From Methanobacteriales archaeon HGW-Methanobacteriales-1 (GTDB taxonomy: Archaea; Methanobacteriota; Methanobacteria; Methanobacteriales; Methanobacteriaceae): a stretch of DNA of 64,000 nucleotides. The DNA is taken from positions 372,001 to 436,000 of the forward strand of contig PGYO01000001.1 of assembly GCA_002839705.1 (NCBI GenBank), given 5' to 3'. The notes below the pieces were generated by a model, which saw nothing but the letters and a program-made list of their open reading frames with translations, was not told the DNA's origin and searched no databases. The position numbers were made by a program, and so were the translations under genes. Below are positions 52,956-64,000 of this stretch, piece by piece; within the stretch, counting starts at the first letter, position 1; each line of letters starts with the position of its first letter.

Positions 52956-54374
52956 TCATGCTATCAGATTAAGTTCTTTAAGTGTTTTATTCAAATTCAA
53001 TAAACGTTCCTTCTTTTGAACAGAATTAATTGGATCTTCTAAATGAGGATTACTATTCGGAATGGTCTGGTAATCAGCACTCTCATCTTCCAAACCAAAA
53101 TCTATACTATCTGCCATATCTTGCGACCTTCGGAGCTCTGTTTTACTAGATGCACCCAGGTTAAACAATATCTGCATCCTGTTGAGGACTGCCAATAAAT
53201 CTTTCTGCAAGAATGGTTTAAATTCAATATCAAAGTAACCGTCCAGGATACCTGCCTGGGCCTTCATCTCCTGAGCATAACTCATAAGTAGTCTTCGGAA
53301 GTTCTTTCGACCACCGGTGGCCTCACGTCGCCTGATAAAAGTATCTGTTATTAATTCTAGGGTTGTTCTATTCTTTACATTATCAATCCTAGTAATCAGA
53401 GGCATAGGCACACCGAATTTCATGGCAATAACTTCATAGGTTTTATCCTCAGTATCTGAGAAATTAGTATCCTTTCCTTTTACGCTGGTGGCCTGGGCTG
53501 GTTTAAGGAAACTATAAGAAACTAGATCCCCGCCGTCTCGGCGTTGTTCTTGGACTGCATTCACCTGTTCTTGTAATGCTTTCTCAGCAGTACCCCAATT
53601 TTGAAGGGCTGCTTTTCCCATATCCGTTTTGAGTAATTCCTGCACATCCATAACCAGGTGTAAATAAACGTTGGCCTGTTTTTTCATTAGGTCTAATCTT
53701 AGGCCCGGTGCTGCTCCTGCAGTTCTTAAATCCATAACACAATTGGCACTGGCTGGGTTTCCCCAGACTCCATGTTTGAGGATGCTTCCTCGGGTGCTGT
53801 AATCCACCCTGTCTTGAGCGAAACTAACTGTCCGAGTTATTCCTGTAGGTGATCGGACATTTTGAACATATTCCATGGTTCCTGTGGGGTCATATAGGGC
53901 CTGTTCTACACTTTGCATATCCAGGCTCATCGGGTTTATTGCATCAATCCCAGTGACCATTTCCTTTTCATTATAGTAGAAACCACCATTTTCGTTATAT
54001 GTTCGGACATTACATCTTCGGCCTAATATTTCACCCAGTGTGGCGTATCGTAGCATGGTGTCTTCTAATTCCATCTTTTGGAATTGTTTTTCTACCAATA
54101 ACTTGGCCTCATGACCCAAATCGTCATCCTCAAATCCTTTAGGAACTAGGCTTACTCCACAACCAATCTCGATAAGAGTAATGAAGTCTATGAATGGGCC
54201 ACTGGCTCCTCGAAGATAATGGAGCATTGCCTCAGCATCAGTTATTGTTGGGAAGGACTTCATTAATTCTAAGTCCATCCTTCCAAAGTTCCGGTACCTT
54301 CGCCTCATGTGGTTAAGCATCTGATCAGTAGGGTCATTCCAGGTTAATGGGATGTCTGATTTTGTATTTTCCAT
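52956..54374 (-). CDS. Portal protein
   Basis: A 472-residue portal, the dodecameric DNA gate of the head. It follows the large terminase with two bases between. Visible features: the N-terminal QMLNHMRRRYRNFGRMDLEL, a beta clip region (NGGFYYNEKEMVTGIDAINP), a GVPMPLITRIDNVKNRTTLE segment similar to the SGxxxG/LP helix regions of portals, and a C-terminal tail. Assigned by order and pattern. Confidence 0.8.
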   Translation of the reverse strand: MENTKSDIPLTWNDPTDQMLNHMRRRYRNFGRMDLELMKSFPTITDAEAMLHYLRGASGPFIDFITLIEIGCGVSLVPKGFEDDDLGHEAKLLVEKQFQKMELEDTMLRYATLGEILGRRCNVRTYNENGGFYYNEKEMVTGIDAINPMSLDMQSVEQALYDPTGTMEYVQNVRSPTGITRTVSFAQDRVDYSTRGSILKHGVWGNPASANCVMDLRTAGAAPGLRLDLMKKQANVYLHLVMDVQELLKTDMGKAALQNWGTAEKALQEQVNAVQEQRRDGGDLVSYSFLKPAQATSVKGKDTNFSDTEDKTYEVIAMKFGVPMPLITRIDNVKNRTTLELITDTFIRRREATGGRKNFRRLLMSYAQEMKAQAGILDGYFDIEFKPFLQKDLLAVLNRMQILFNLGASSKTELRRSQDMADSIDFGLEDESADYQTIPNSNPHLEDPINSVQKKERLLNLNKTLKELNLIA

Positions 54375-54376
54375 AA

Positions 54377-55960
54377 TTATCCTCTTGCCTTAAATACTTT
54401 GAATGGGTTAATGTCTTCCGGATACTGTTCTTCTACTTCCTCGCCATAGAATAATTCGTTTAGGCCACCACTGAAAGCGTCCACTTGATCATCATGTATT
54501 CCTTTTGTGGGGAATGTTGAAATTTCATTAAGAAAAGTAATTATCCAGTCTGATCCTTCTTTGATCTTTAGGAAACCATGTTTTACAAAGCTCACATAAG
54601 CTCGTGCTCTGTCGATTTTGCTTTTTCGTGGTATGCTCCAACCTGAGAAATTAAATCCTGGTAATTTGCCTGCAAATGTGTTCATTACATATTTGGCACT
54701 TGCTCCGCCTTCTTGTTCTATTCGGACTTTTAGGTTCTCTCTGCCATACTTCTCAGCATCTTTTTTGGCAGTGAGGAGGATCTCTTCTTCTGCTTTATCA
54801 GGATCGTATCGGAATCGGACTATATCTTCTAAGTATACTTTACCAGATTCACCAAGCCCTAAGAGCATTCCAACAGTCCAGTCAGGCCCACCTTTTTTAT
54901 TGTCATCTTTTTCTTCGGTGGCTGCAAGATCCCAGAATCGTACCCATTGGGTGATTTTTTCTGTAATGACTTCGTATAATCTTTTAGTGAACCATTTTCT
55001 TTTGAATAGTTTACCTTCAGGAATTGCTTCCCAATCACCATATTTCCATTGACGATATAATATGGGATCTGAATCTTTAATGGCTTCCAGGGAATCTTTT
55101 TCATATTGTTTATCATCGAGGTAAACATTATCAGTATATTTACTGTTGATGAATGTTCCTGGGCCATCTACATAATTTGTTTTAAAGTAATCGTGACTTA
55201 TTCCACCGGGGTTTCCTGTGAACCATGTTCTTAGTGGTAGTGGATCTGTAATTTGTTTACGTTTAGATCCTGTAATTGTGATGATTTTTTTCTCAGATAT
55301 ATGGACTGCTTCATCAAAAATAAGGTGATGAAATTCTGCTCCTTGATAATTAGCAGCGTCCTTTTCATGCTGAATGTGAGCAAACTTTATCTTGGCCCCA
55401 TTGGGGAAAGTGAATAATTTATTAGTGTCATCCCAATGTGGTTCAATTCCTGCTTTTTCTAGTATTGGGTTTTTGTGTAGCCAATCCTTGGCCCTGTCCA
55501 TTACTGCGTTAGGTGCACTTAATTCTGGATAAGTTAGTCGGAATATACCGACTTTCCATTTTGGGAATTCCGCATACTGAAGGGCCCCGATAAGTGAGGC
55601 TTCTGTTTTACCTCCACCACGAGCTCCTCCATAAAGGACAGAACCTCTGGAAAATATTAAAAGAATCTGATTAAAAAACGGAACTACGGGAATATAGGGA
55701 TTCAGGATTATTGTATCATAAAAATTATCCTTCTCTTCTTGACTTAAGCAATGGAATAATGCCTGTACACGATAATCCTCTTCATATTGTGCCTCCCAAA
55801 CTTCAATTTTCCAATCTATTAATTCTTCTATTGAATTAATTTCAGGTGCATTGAATAGGAATTTACGAAGTTTCTGACGGACCTCATCCTTGATCTGAGG
55901 CCTTATCAATGTTATCTGGTTTATCTCCTGTTGAACTTCCGATATCAGAGTGGTAGTCAT
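54377..55960 (-). CDS. terL: Large terminase subunit
   Basis: A 527-residue DNA-packaging motor. The ATPase domain has Walker A-like YGGARGGGKTEASL (about residue 115) and Walker B HHLIFDEAVHI (about 215). The RNase H-like nuclease has Asp in RFWDLAATEEKD (about 345), DIVRFRYDP and the final DDQVDAFSGGL (about 500). Its start lies inside the small terminase gene (77-base overlap). The identification is firm. Confidence 0.92.
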   Translation of the reverse strand: MTTTLISEVQQEINQITLIRPQIKDEVRQKLRKFLFNAPEINSIEELIDWKIEVWEAQYEEDYRVQALFHCLSQEEKDNFYDTIILNPYIPVVPFFNQILLIFSRGSVLYGGARGGGKTEASLIGALQYAEFPKWKVGIFRLTYPELSAPNAVMDRAKDWLHKNPILEKAGIEPHWDDTNKLFTFPNGAKIKFAHIQHEKDAANYQGAEFHHLIFDEAVHISEKKIITITGSKRKQITDPLPLRTWFTGNPGGISHDYFKTNYVDGPGTFINSKYTDNVYLDDKQYEKDSLEAIKDSDPILYRQWKYGDWEAIPEGKLFKRKWFTKRLYEVITEKITQWVRFWDLAATEEKDDNKKGGPDWTVGMLLGLGESGKVYLEDIVRFRYDPDKAEEEILLTAKKDAEKYGRENLKVRIEQEGGASAKYVMNTFAGKLPGFNFSGWSIPRKSKIDRARAYVSFVKHGFLKIKEGSDWIITFLNEISTFPTKGIHDDQVDAFSGGLNELFYGEEVEEQYPEDINPFKVFKARG

Positions 55961-56414
55961 GCTTTGCCTCTATCGTTCTAAGGCGCTTCAATCTAAGTTC
56001 AACATCAACTTTGCCATTAGTTTCAGTAATGTCAGTAGGCTGGCTTTGAATCAGCAATGCTAGTTTGATTAATTTGTCAAGATCTTTAGTTGTTTCAATA
56101 GGAATCGGTTGTATTATGCCTTTTTTCACGCCATTAGTGTATTTATTAAGTGATGCGTGAACAATTCCTAAGTATTTGACTTTATTATCAACAACAGTTT
56201 TGTTGGTCTTTTCTTCTAGTGTTTTATTGTTCTCTACTTCTCTGATTGATATTTTACTATCCCAATCGAATTCTTTTTTCCATCGCCAAGCAGTTCGTTC
56301 ACTTATTTTAAATTTTTTTGTGACTGTCAGAATACTGTCATCAATGGATTTTCCTTCGTGTAGTGTGAGGTAGTAAAGTTCAAAGGCTTTTTTGTGTTTT
56401 TGCTTTTCTTCCAT
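55884..56414 (-). CDS. terS: Small terminase subunit
   Basis: A 176-residue DNA-recognition subunit. It has an N-terminal helix-turn-helix (residues about 15-50: SILTVTKKFKISERTAWRWK), a middle helical oligomerisation part and an acidic tail (SDIGSSTGDKPDNIDKASDQ) that is encoded in the overlap with terL. It begins the late minus-strand operon. A TATA-like TATATAATAATTTAAA lies about 20-40 bases upstream. Confidence 0.8.
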   Translation of the reverse strand: MEEKQKHKKAFELYYLTLHEGKSIDDSILTVTKKFKISERTAWRWKKEFDWDSKISIREVENNKTLEEKTNKTVVDNKVKYLGIVHASLNKYTNGVKKGIIQPIPIETTKDLDKLIKLALLIQSQPTDITETNGKVDVELRLKRLRTIEAKHDYHSDIGSSTGDKPDNIDKASDQG

Positions 56415-56470
56415 TGTGAATCACTTTTAAATTATTATATATTATTTCGAGATAATGGAAGATTATATAT

Positions 56471-56504
56471 ATATTATAGAATAATTCTATATTATAGAAT
56501 AATT
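56471..56504. promoter_or_regulatory. Operator between late and early promoters
   Basis: A 14-base direct repeat ATTATAGAATAATT (56473-56486 and 56491-56504, period 18) overlaps a perfect palindrome TATAGAAT-A-ATTCTATA (56475-56491). The site lies between the divergent terminase operon and the 56520 gene. The 11-base core ATATTATAGAA recurs, inverted, at 57185-57195 before the AbrB-like gene. Confidence 0.6.
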
Positions 56505-56519
56505 ACTTTGGTGAAAAAC

Positions 56520-56960
56520 ATGAATCAAATAAAATACAAAACAAAAACACGAGAATTCAAATCCTACATGAAAAAAACAAAAACTGCTATCTTAAAAATT
56601 GGAGAAAAGAAATATAAAGTCAAACAAGAGGAATACGTCTATTTTGACAATGAAATGAAAGATTATCCATTAAGACCTGAATGGTATTTAACAAAAACTC
56701 AAATGAGAAATCTTTTAAAAGCATATCCGGAAAAATGGCTTCTTAAAGTTAAAAGCCGTTTTGATGGAATGGTTGATTGTGTAATGCCTGTTGAAGATGA
56801 ATTTTCATTTGTGGATTCTGAAATACTTGAATCAATAAGTGATGATATTCGATGCTATAGTTATAGGACACATTATAATACTGAAACTGGTGTTTTCAAT
56901 CTTTGGAGTTGTGTCGGAGCATATGAATTCAAATTTGATGGAGAACTCCAATTCTTATAA
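56520..56960 (+). CDS. Hypothetical early protein, 146 residues
   Basis: Starts MNQIKYKTKTREFKSYMKKT at 56520 with GGTGAAAAAC before the ATG; a longer frame upstream crosses the operator and is not supported. The N-terminus is basic; the middle (RPEWYLTKTQMRNLLKAYPE) is helical; the C-terminus is mixed with aromatic residues. It is first of three small plus-strand genes. Not recognised; a DNA-binding or regulatory role is possible. Confidence 0.6.
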   Translation: MNQIKYKTKTREFKSYMKKTKTAILKIGEKKYKVKQEEYVYFDNEMKDYPLRPEWYLTKTQMRNLLKAYPEKWLLKVKSRFDGMVDCVMPVEDEFSFVDSEILESISDDIRCYSYRTHYNTETGVFNLWSCVGAYEFKFDGELQFL

Positions 56961-56990
56961 ATTCATATTTTTTTTTAGGGGGTATATTAA

Positions 56991-57167
56991 ATGGATTATT
57001 CAGCAGATAAGCATTGGAATAATGTTTTGGCTTTAGCTCGTAAGTATGGTTTCATTTTAAAGGCTGATAAGAGTAATGCTATCTTGGCCACTCATAAAAC
57101 TCAGATTGAGAAGTATGGTGTGGAGGGTTATAATAAGATCCAGAAAATGAATAAAGGGGAAAAATAG
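56991..57167 (+). CDS. Hypothetical small protein, 58 residues
   Basis: ATG 56991 behind AGGGGGT gives MDYSADKHWNNVLALARKYG, then a middle helix and KIQKMNKGEK at the end. It is basic, helical and soluble. It is second in the early plus-strand group, 30 bases after the previous gene. Not recognised. Confidence 0.55.
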   Translation: MDYSADKHWNNVLALARKYGFILKADKSNAILATHKTQIEKYGVEGYNKIQKMNKGEK

Positions 57168-57170
57168 TTG

Positions 57171-57195
57171 ATTATATAAAGTAGTTCTATAATAT
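57171..57195 (+). promoter_or_regulatory. Promoter/operator of the AbrB-like gene
   Basis: TATA-like ATTATATAAAG at 57171-57181, then TTCTATAATAT (57185-57195), an exact inverted copy of the 56471 core motif. The overlap of motif and promoter suggests repression by a shared regulator. Confidence 0.5.
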
Positions 57196-57232
57196 CAACT
57201 ATTATACTTTATTTTATTTGAAGGGATTTATT

Positions 57233-57487
57233 ATGGTTTTTGAAGAAGCTGAAACAATTATAGAAATCAAACCAGGATTTAAAACACATATAAGTAAAAC
57301 TGTCTTGGAATCTATAGGAGCAAATGAAGGGGAATTTATCAAAGTTATTTTTAAAGATAAGAATGTTGAAACCGTTATCAAAATAAAGCCCGGATTCAAA
57401 ACACACATACCTAAAAGCATTATTGAATCCATAAATGCTAAAGAAAACGATTTTATTAAAATAATCTTGAAAAAAATATCTAATTAA
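57233..57487 (+). CDS. Internally duplicated AbrB-like DNA-binding protein
   Basis: An 84-residue protein starting MVFEEAETIIEIKPGFKTHI behind AAGGGA. It contains two near-identical halves: IEIKPGFKTHISKTVLESIG and IKIKPGFKTHIPKSIIESIN, each followed by a short beta strand. Each half has the SpoVT-AbrB/MazE pattern (beta, IPKSI helix, GAxxGDFIKV). AbrB normally acts as a swapped dimer; here a single chain would make the whole unit. It is a likely lysogeny or promoter regulator, next to repeated operators. Confidence 0.7.
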   Translation: MVFEEAETIIEIKPGFKTHISKTVLESIGANEGEFIKVIFKDKNVETVIKIKPGFKTHIPKSIIESINAKENDFIKIILKKISN

Positions 57488-58453
57488 TTAAATTTTAGCT
57501 AATATTTCTTTTTGAATATTTTCAGCAATTGCTTTCATCATATTGGGTGGAACACTATTCCCTATACGAGCCCATTTATCCTCAGGGTTCCCAATTAATT
57601 TAAAATCTTTTGGAAAGCTTGCTAATTTTTTTATTTCATTTATTGTGATATATCTTCCAGATTCATGGAAGAACTGTCCGAATCCACTTCTTGTTATTGT
57701 TGGAGATGGTTTATTTCTTGATAATTTAATATAATTAAAATAACTACCATTGGGATGGTATTTACTAAATTGTTCTCCAGGTCTAACTCTATTAATTACA
57801 GATTTCACAAAATCGTTATTTGAATATTTTATAAATTCTGGTTCAATGTCTTTTAATGCTTCTCCTACAGTTATTGGTTTTGTTTGTGGTTTCGGATGAG
57901 ATGGAATGATATTTAAATCGTTTCGTACTCCTATGAAAATCATTCGTTTCCTGGATTGTGGAACATTATAATACATAGAATTCATTAAACGAGCTTTTAC
58001 TTGATATCCACTTGCTTTTAGTTCTTTCAGTATATCTGCAAAGATAAGTTTCATCTTACCTTTAACCATTCCAGAAACATTCTCCATAACAAAAACTTTA
58101 GGCTGTAATCCCTTGAGAAGTCTAATATACTCATTATACAATTGATTACGAGGATCACAAAAATCTCTTTTACCAGCTGTACTAAAACCTTGACAAGGTG
58201 GCGAACCATCAAAAATATCTAATTCACCAGGTTTTAATCCTGTTATTTCTAAAACTTTTTCTACACTTAAATTATGGATATCACCATGAAAAATAGGAGT
58301 TCCAGGAAAATTAAAATTATAGGTTTCAACAGCATTATCATCCATTTCTACAGCCAATAAAACCTTGCCACCTGCTAATTTATAACCTAAACTGGATCCT
58401 CCACAACCAGAAAATGTACTTATAACATTGAATGATTTATTTTGGGAATTCAT
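57488..58453 (-). CDS. DNA (cytosine-5-)-methyltransferase
   Basis: A 321-residue C5 methyltransferase with all main motifs: motif I FNVISTFSGCGGSSLGY, motif IV GSPPCQGFS with catalytic Cys, motif VI VMENVSG, motif VIII VPQSRKRMIFIG, and motifs IX/X ending in IGNSVPPNMM. The start MNSQNKSFN at 58453 overlaps the end of the ParB-like gene by 17 bases; an upstream in-frame extension lies inside that gene. No restriction endonuclease is adjacent, so it is probably a protective orphan methylase. Its target sequence cannot be read. Confidence 0.92.
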   Translation of the reverse strand: MNSQNKSFNVISTFSGCGGSSLGYKLAGGKVLLAVEMDDNAVETYNFNFPGTPIFHGDIHNLSVEKVLEITGLKPGELDIFDGSPPCQGFSTAGKRDFCDPRNQLYNEYIRLLKGLQPKVFVMENVSGMVKGKMKLIFADILKELKASGYQVKARLMNSMYYNVPQSRKRMIFIGVRNDLNIIPSHPKPQTKPITVGEALKDIEPEFIKYSNNDFVKSVINRVRPGEQFSKYHPNGSYFNYIKLSRNKPSPTITRSGFGQFFHESGRYITINEIKKLASFPKDFKLIGNPEDKWARIGNSVPPNMMKAIAENIQKEILAKI

Positions 58454-58943
58454 ATCCACACTCCGGACATTTAATAGTTTCAACAGATTTAGCAATATCT
58501 TCATCAAACTCAGGTTCTTCATCAGGAACTATATCATCCACTTTTGGAGATACTAATTCATCAATTTCAAAACCAGTTAATGACAAATCAAATTCTTGCA
58601 TTTCTAGATCTATTGATAATTCTTCAAGTTTGGGATAGTTCCAATAAGATTCTTCTGAAAGCTTATTATCTGCTATCATTAAAGCAATAGCTTCACTCGA
58701 ATCATGTAAATATTCTCTCTGTCTAAAAGGAACTTTATCCATACCTAATTTTTCAGTTGCAGCAATAAAAGCACCATGACCAGCAATAATATAAAAATCT
58801 TTACTAATCAATATCGGCCTGCCCCAACCAAGCTCTTTAATATTTTTAGCAATCTTATCCAACTGCTCAGATGGATGCTCATTAGGATTATTAGGATGAA
58901 GTTTTAACTTAGAAACTTCAATCCAAGGTGATTTATCGTCCAT
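58437..58943 (-). CDS. ParB/Srx-like domain protein with zinc tail
   Basis: A 168-residue protein with a ParB N-terminal-like domain (residues 5-100): LHPNNPNEHPSEQLDKIAKN, then GWGRPILISKDFYIIAGHGA and IALMIADNKLSE. The C-terminus carries CPECGYEF, half of a zinc ribbon. ParB-like proteins of this form are often linked to phage DNA methylases. It overlaps the following methyltransferase gene by 17 bases, so the two are translationally coupled. Its role, for instance as a methylase partner, is inferred. Confidence 0.75.
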   Translation of the reverse strand: MDDKSPWIEVSKLKLHPNNPNEHPSEQLDKIAKNIKELGWGRPILISKDFYIIAGHGAFIAATEKLGMDKVPFRQREYLHDSSEAIALMIADNKLSEESYWNYPKLEELSIDLEMQEFDLSLTGFEIDELVSPKVDDIVPDEEPEFDEDIAKSVETIKCPECGYEFPK

Positions 58944-63371: not shown

Positions 63372-63614
63372 TTACTTCCACATTAATATCCCAACTATAC
63401 TACTGATGAAATAAGCTATCCAAACAACAGCCATATAGTATTCTTTTCTTTTAATAGCAAAATAAAGGAATACTGGGTTGCTAATGGCCCATATATAGAA
63501 TGCTAATGGTGATTTCATAGCACTTTGTATATATGCTCCACTTAATCCCATCAGTACAGCTGCTATTTCTAAGAGTTTCAATGAATCAATTTTATAAGTT
63601 TTTAATTTATTCAT
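63372..63614 (-). CDS. Small integral membrane protein, about 80 residues
   Basis: Three hydrophobic segments (LLEIAAVLMGLSGAYI, LAFYIWAISNPVFLYFAI, MAVVWIAYFISSIVGILMW) form a small membrane bundle. The ATG at 63614 lies behind AGGAAA; an ATG at 63629 lies five codons upstream. Its start overlaps the end of the JAB-domain gene, so the two are co-translated. Function unknown. Confidence 0.6.
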   Translation of the reverse strand: MNKLKTYKIDSLKLLEIAAVLMGLSGAYIQSAMKSPLAFYIWAISNPVFLYFAIKRKEYYMAVVWIAYFISSIVGILMWK

Positions 63615-64000
63615 AAAATTTTCCTGCATGTAAATCTATCTCCATTTTTATAGACTTGGATACTTAATTCAAATTCATTATCTGGAATGCCTCCAACGAT
63701 TAGAAGAATAGGCTCTGGACAATTAACGCATTCATCATTGGCTATTCTAATCATTTCATTATCATCTACAAAGCTAGGTTTTGAAGAATTATTTGGATGG
63801 AAATGCCAGTCACCGATATAACGCTTCCCTTGTTTATATTCATAATCCATAATTTCTTGTATGCCTTCTATCCCTCTATAAAATCCATGCGTACTATGTT
63901 CTGAGTCTTTGGGTGGTCCAGTCATTCTATTGATAATGGCTGTAGAATTATCAACTGAGTAATTCCCTAAGAGTATCCCTCCAGTTTCTAGGATACCCGC
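63611..64000 (-). CDS. JAB/MPN-domain metalloprotease-like protein (5' end cut by window)
   Basis: A frame that runs off the right edge. It begins ILETGGILLGNYSVDNSTAI, then GDWHFHPNNSSKPSFVDD: the glutamate, HxH and Ser/Asp pattern of the JAB (MPN+) zinc peptidase active site. About 130 residues are visible. JAB proteins of prokaryotes cut ubiquitin-like tails in conjugation or in defence systems. Its partner upstream is not in the window. The stop overlaps the following small membrane protein gene. Confidence 0.75.
   Translation of the reverse strand, partial: AGILETGGILLGNYSVDNSTAIINRMTGPPKDSEHSTHGFYRGIEGIQEIMDYEYKQGKRYIGDWHFHPNNSSKPSFVDDNEMIRIANDECVNCPEPILLIVGGIPDNEFELSIQVYKNGDRFTCRKIL

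Follow-up and report, generated by a model that had tools for sequence, protein, structure and literature searches.

Gene organization of the locus

The window, a 64-kb stretch (G000:C1:372001-436000) of a 2.57-Mb genome, carries a tailed-virus genome in its right half. The genes for a ParB-like protein, a C5 cytosine methyltransferase and the small (terS) and large (terL) terminase subunits form a leftward series, within which three genes, ORF146, ORF58 and the gene for an AbrB-like protein, are read rightward (Table 1). The methyltransferase and the terminase are separated by 1,073 bp. ParB, C5 methyltransferase and terminase (54377-58943) recur as a co-directional module in distant viral contigs, and a ParB match is present in 63 of 80 viral loci with this methyltransferase. 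A JAB-domain-like protein is encoded among the viral genes at 63611-63925 (Prok-JAB, E 1e-4, under the cut-off).

Neither ORF146 nor ORF58 belongs to a Pfam family; ORF146 falls in no PHROG family and ORF58 in no named one, and no toxin partner is recognised in the pair. The ORF146 family is widespread among viruses and consists of small proteins, with an invariant FDGMVDCVM and a CxG motif near the C-terminus in 12 aligned members.

Table 1. Features of the locus, in positions of the 64-kb window. TATA boxes and starts are predictions from the match to an archaeal promoter consensus.
Feature	Position	Strand	Remarks
Large terminase subunit (terL)	54377-55960	-	40% identical to psiM2
Small terminase subunit (terS)	55884-56414	-	phrog_6299, E 4e-13
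Predicted TATA box TATATATA	56464-56471	both directions	predicted starts: ORF146 about 56494, terS about 56441
18-bp tandem duplication TATATTATAGAATAATTC x 1.9	56470-56504		Tandem Repeats Finder; contains motif copies 1 and 2
Motif copy 1, ATATTATAGAA	56471-56481	+	exact-match search
17-bp palindrome TATAGAATAATTCTATA	56475-56491		left and middle arm of the alternating palindrome
17-bp palindrome ATTCTATATTATAGAAT	56484-56500		middle and right arm; read directly from the sequence
Motif copy 2, ATATTATAGAA	56489-56499	+	exact-match search
ORF146	56520-56960	+	small viral protein; FDGMVDCVMP motif common to many viral contigs
ORF58	56991-57167	+	phrog_1378 at E 0.019 only
Inverted repeat AATAGTTGAT / ATCAACTATT	57163-57172 / 57194-57203		flanks the TATA box predicted for the AbrB-like gene
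Predicted TATA box of the AbrB-like gene	57171-57178	+	predicted start about 57201
Motif copy 3, ATATTATAGAA	57185-57195	-	at the predicted promoter of the AbrB-like gene
AbrB-like (cradle-loop barrel) protein	57233-57487	+	84 aa, internally duplicated
C5 cytosine methyltransferase	57488-58453	-	leftward operon; Pfam DNA_methylase, E 5e-67
ParB-like gene	58437-58943	-	leftward operon; phrog_620, E 2e-37

A cassette within the terminase operon

The 80 methyltransferase loci include one copy of the same virus (L087), which leaves 79 for comparison. Within the DNA covered, a terminase is detectable in eight of these, and the remaining 71 are uninformative either way. In all eight, the terminase is co-directional with the methyltransferase, and the next co-directional frame starts between 19 bp before and 51 bp after the methyltransferase stop. 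Opposite-strand frames of at least 60 codons are found in five of the eight (L088, L089, L101, L116 and L133), where they overlie co-directional frames. The rightward genes seen here are absent from the same operon in every comparable locus (8/8). The viruses psiM2, psiM100 and PhiF3, whose large terminases are related to the one encoded here (40%, 39% and 34% identity, respectively), likewise differ from this locus in having neither opposed genes nor a tandem repeat before terS (psiM2 and psiM100) or before terL (PhiF3).

Judged from these sequence comparisons, the ParB-methyltransferase-terminase operon has taken up a cassette on the opposite strand, made up of ORF146, ORF58 and the AbrB-like gene; as expected for a moron (cargo) cassette, these genes are absent from the same place in relatives. 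The GC content is 0.29 in 56001-58000 versus 0.39 in 54001-56000; base composition does not single the cassette out, because the DNA to its right likewise has 0.29-0.31 GC.

Repeats at the predicted promoters

A preliminary description of this DNA had reported three exact copies of the 11-base motif ATATTATAGAA. All three are present and correctly placed, and they are the only exact copies in the window. Copies 1 and 2 are not independent, because both belong to one 18-bp tandem duplication, the sole one in the window with a run of at least 16 matches and a period of 10-40. It spans the interval from the predicted TATA box to the predicted start of ORF146, lies in the divergent gap between ORF146 and the terminase gene, and adjoins a predicted TATA box that is readable in the terS direction as well. 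The copies had been assigned to early promoters; they do lie at predicted archaeal promoters, and the designation as early is not confirmed.

Three 8-base arms are contained in the duplication: TATAGAAT (56475-56482), ATTCTATA (56484-56491) and again TATAGAAT (56493-56500). The middle arm can pair with either flanking arm and therefore generates two overlapping 17-bp palindromes, an alternating palindrome, where a single 17-bp palindrome had been noted before. The perfect 15-bp core of the right-hand palindrome occurs once in the genome when no mismatch is allowed. With up to two mismatches, the 15-bp palindrome is found at 48 places genome-wide versus 47 for the control, which is no enrichment.

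At the promoter of the AbrB-like gene, the more regular repeat is AATAGTTGAT...ATCAACTATT, the sequence of which is different from ATATTATAGAA. This inverted repeat occurs once in the genome and has a P of 0.04 in one scoring. A second scoring gives it a weaker value of 0.067 over 57150-57232 and, over 57168-57232 alone, a P of 0.18 for another repeat.

The TATA-like boxes of the cassette are predicted at the right distance and in the orientation opposite to the operon. A scan for bacterial sigma-70 promoters is uninformative (8 sites versus 9.2 in shuffles), and a bacterial-type scan, not designed for archaea, returns no terminator on the + strand.

The AbrB-like protein

In agreement with the earlier description of the AbrB-like protein as duplicated, its two repeats are 59% identical, and its model is an AbrB-like cradle-loop barrel. 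This AlphaFold2 model, computed from the single sequence, has a mean pLDDT of 86 and contains the beta-alpha-beta unit of such barrels. The top structural matches are PhS018 and double-psi barrels; no AbrB structure is among the best 50 matches listed, which excludes nothing. RNA polymerase subunit H shows a weak resemblance, which we take to be a shared loop motif.

A search of PDB sequences with the protein returns archaeal AbrB regulators first, at E 0.28-0.41. Against a home-made profile of archaeal AbrB, built from 28 of 30 fetched segments, the protein scores 14.3 bits, a value reached by none of 500 shuffles (best 11.0), and profile-profile comparison gives a probability of 44%. The Pfam cut-off (MazE_antitoxin) is reached neither by the whole protein nor by its units, and the first repeat scores near zero against the archaeal profile, as does a related protein from the viral locus L045. 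The DNA-contact arginines proposed in AbrB are R8, R15, R23 and R24 (PMC4022651). The AbrB-like protein has no arginine anywhere; in 22 of the 28 archaeal segments, the aligned position, four residues beyond the IP proline, is an arginine.

Each chain of the AbrB dimer has one beta-alpha-beta unit, and a single MraZ chain has two (PMC4739770). In its model, the AbrB-like protein looks like two AbrB-type units in one chain, with weak support at the level of sequence, and it may work like AbrB. We do not grant it membership of the AbrB DNA-binding family, because its sequence scores are weak, no Pfam cut-off is reached and arginine is absent.

The L045 protein (L045:1319-1447) is a 43-aa, single-unit version that is 56% identical to the second repeat. 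Its gene directly follows one that we take to be ArdC-like, and the virus also has a ParB-like gene.

Search for relatives of the cassette

Genomes, viral contigs and genome contigs yielded no independent relative of the cassette for phylogenetic footprinting. The sole identical copy, in UViG 3300038334_000146, is not independent, because it is 100% identical over all DNA compared. Searched with the AbrB-like protein, the genomes return the protein itself (1 of 149) or, in a set of 151, one further hit, weak and PrlF/MazE-like, besides itself; the viral contigs return itself and the L045 protein, a single-unit version without the cassette; and the genome contigs return no match. ORF146 has no relative among the genomes other than itself (1 of 149). 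In viral contigs it matches itself and 40 other loci, which share a domain and not the promoter, and ORF58 matches only itself there.

In viral contigs, the 20-bp core is found in four stretches, one from the same virus and three from one unrelated virus group. The AATAGTTGAT inverted repeat is found in 16 stretches, and of these only the stretch from the same virus has matches to the window proteins used as queries as well.

A local operator as the tentative reading

Our tentative reading, with a probability of roughly 0.4, is that the repeat acts locally, as the operator of a small cargo ('moron') cassette, and is not a lysogeny switch. A small repressor would bind the arms of the alternating palindrome and, once bound, would block TBP/TFB or RNA polymerase. 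Such a block would keep ORF146-ORF58 low and would perhaps damp the terS promoter. The AbrB-like protein would be one candidate binder, its own promoter being marked by the third motif copy and the separate inverted repeat.

This reading is favored because a unique 18-bp duplication forms an alternating palindrome and occupies the interval between the predicted TATA box and the predicted start, because a third copy stands at the second promoter of the same cassette next to a gene whose product has an AbrB-like fold, because the cassette is absent from all eight comparable loci and from psiM2, psiM100 and PhiF3, and because similar layouts serve F55 in SSV1 and MazE in mazEF (PMC5569661, PMC9608457, PMC4803016). 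Against it stand the lack of genome-wide enrichment, the P of only about 0.05 for the palindrome and for the third copy, the failure to find an independent relative that would show conservation, the lack of arginine in the AbrB-like protein and its failure to reach a Pfam cut-off, and the predicted nature of the promoters and starts.

Chance duplication and the three-site pattern

The main rival, doubtful in our view yet a serious possibility, is that slippage duplicated a piece of AT-rich promoter DNA without giving it a function of its own, the third copy being a chance match in another TATA-rich promoter. One 18-bp duplication is enough to account for the two direct copies and for most of the palindromic pattern. 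When the region is simulated with a Markov model of the same composition, a palindrome with 8-base arms has a P of about 0.05, and the chance that at least one 11-mer of the tandem unit is found again elsewhere in the noncoding DNA of the cassette is also about 0.05. The 11-mer itself is at background, with 17 matches in 2.57 Mb versus 16 for the reversed control. The preliminary description had held that a motif frequent elsewhere in the chromosome would refute its reading, and on this count its proposal fails, though the local clustering stays. With up to one mismatch allowed, the window has 14 matches versus a chance mean of 6.25. Triplets of an 11-mer within 800 bp number four in the window, this one included, versus six in 20 simulated windows; the arrangement is not unique to this site, because three others occur.

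Three observations are less easily accommodated by slippage: the window has no other duplication of this kind, this one sits exactly between the predicted TATA box and start, and the exact 11-mer appears again at the other promoter of the cassette (chance 0.003 for recurrence in 57168-57232, calculated for that 11-mer alone). The tandem duplication is a distinct feature and the three-site 'regulon' is marginal, because the palindrome and the third copy each have chance values near 5%, the 11-mer is at background and three other triplets are present.

A more specific form of the local operator is unlikely to hold in all its parts. In it, a single-chain, arginine-free double-AbrB repressor of a methanogen virus would control the cargo cassette in toxin-antitoxin style, acting within the terminase operon on an archaeal TATA promoter by way of a mazEF-like alternating palindrome.

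The lysogeny switch and packaging site alternatives

The preliminary description had proposed a lysogeny switch, with the AbrB-like protein as the candidate that keeps early promoters closed. In favor of this proposal are the presence of repeats at two promoters, including that of the candidate regulator itself, and a layout that is the same as that of F55 of SSV1. We nevertheless regard it as very improbable, since the genes served would be those of an opposite-strand cassette inserted in the terminase operon and not early genes, the main leftward operon probably starts at a place with no motif copy and with an Arc-like gene of its own, and no tyrosine or serine recombinase is found on contig C1, where a diverged one could be missed. 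Tyrosine recombinases occur on other contigs only, and no serine recombinase was found.

The leftward genes run on to a histone-fold gene at L079:6130-6681 (70130-70681 on the scale of the window). Pointing the opposite way from it is a gene for an Arc-like ribbon-helix-helix protein (L079:6909-7064; phrog_582, E 0.002). With the early genes inferred from gene order, the divergent gap between the two (L079:6682-6908), about 14 kb away from the cassette, is the likelier early control region of the virus. The 14 kb of L079 contain no match to ATATTATAGAA with up to one mismatch.

The histone-fold gene is the first of the leftward gene series of the virus, and its 183-aa product has an extra C-terminal part (Pfam Histone, E 2e-5, just under the cut-off). 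Adjoining the virus, L079:7455-10692 carries a small gene that by eye looks ribbon-helix-helix, then an N6 DNA methylase and a gene that by eye is type I specificity-like.

Equally far-fetched is the idea that the small terminase binds the direct repeats as a packaging (pac) site: the terS start codon is about 55 bp downstream of them and small terminases often bind near their own gene, but a search that covered 300 bp ahead of the terS start and 200 bp beyond it finds no comparable tandem duplication in any of five loci (psiM2, psiM100, PhiF3, L047 and L145; in PhiF3, ORF8, the gene before terL, was used).

If the local operator reading is right, the sharper gain is a correction: the site would serve an inserted cargo cassette and not the decision circuit of the virus, for which L079:6682-6908 would be a better place to look. 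It would also be useful to have an operator measured in a methanogen virus, as the reviewed archaeal virus regulators considered here (PMC5569661, PMC9608457) come from Sulfolobus and Acidianus viruses.

Comparison with known systems

PhS018 of Pyrococcus horikoshii (2glw) is the best structural match of the AbrB-like model (Z 9.2, 82 residues aligned, rmsd 2.7). It shares the arrangement of two beta-alpha-beta units in one chain and differs in sequence, with 16% identity. To our knowledge, PhS018 has no assigned DNA-binding role.

F55 of SSV1 binds tandem 11-nt repeats that overlap the BRE and start sites of early genes and of its own promoter (PMC5569661, PMC9608457). The locus described here likewise has an 11-nt element in tandem over the predicted elements of one promoter and a site at the putative regulator's own promoter. 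In contrast to F55, a ribbon-helix-helix protein acting on early genes, the nearby protein here is AbrB-like and models as a beta barrel, and the operator copies lie at promoters of the inserted cassette and not of early genes. The operator sequence given for F55, ATAGATAGAGT, also differs from ATATTATAGAA.

MazE, an antitoxin of the SpoVT/AbrB type, represses mazEF through an alternating palindrome (PMC4803016). The two systems share a middle arm that can pair with either neighbor inside a promoter and an AbrB-type protein encoded nearby. Unlike in mazEF, no toxin is recognised here, and the AbrB-like gene is the last of its cassette and has a predicted promoter of its own; unlike MazE, the protein is duplicated in one chain and lacks arginine. 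In its anatomy the site resembles the F55 and mazEF operators, and in its gene context it matches neither.
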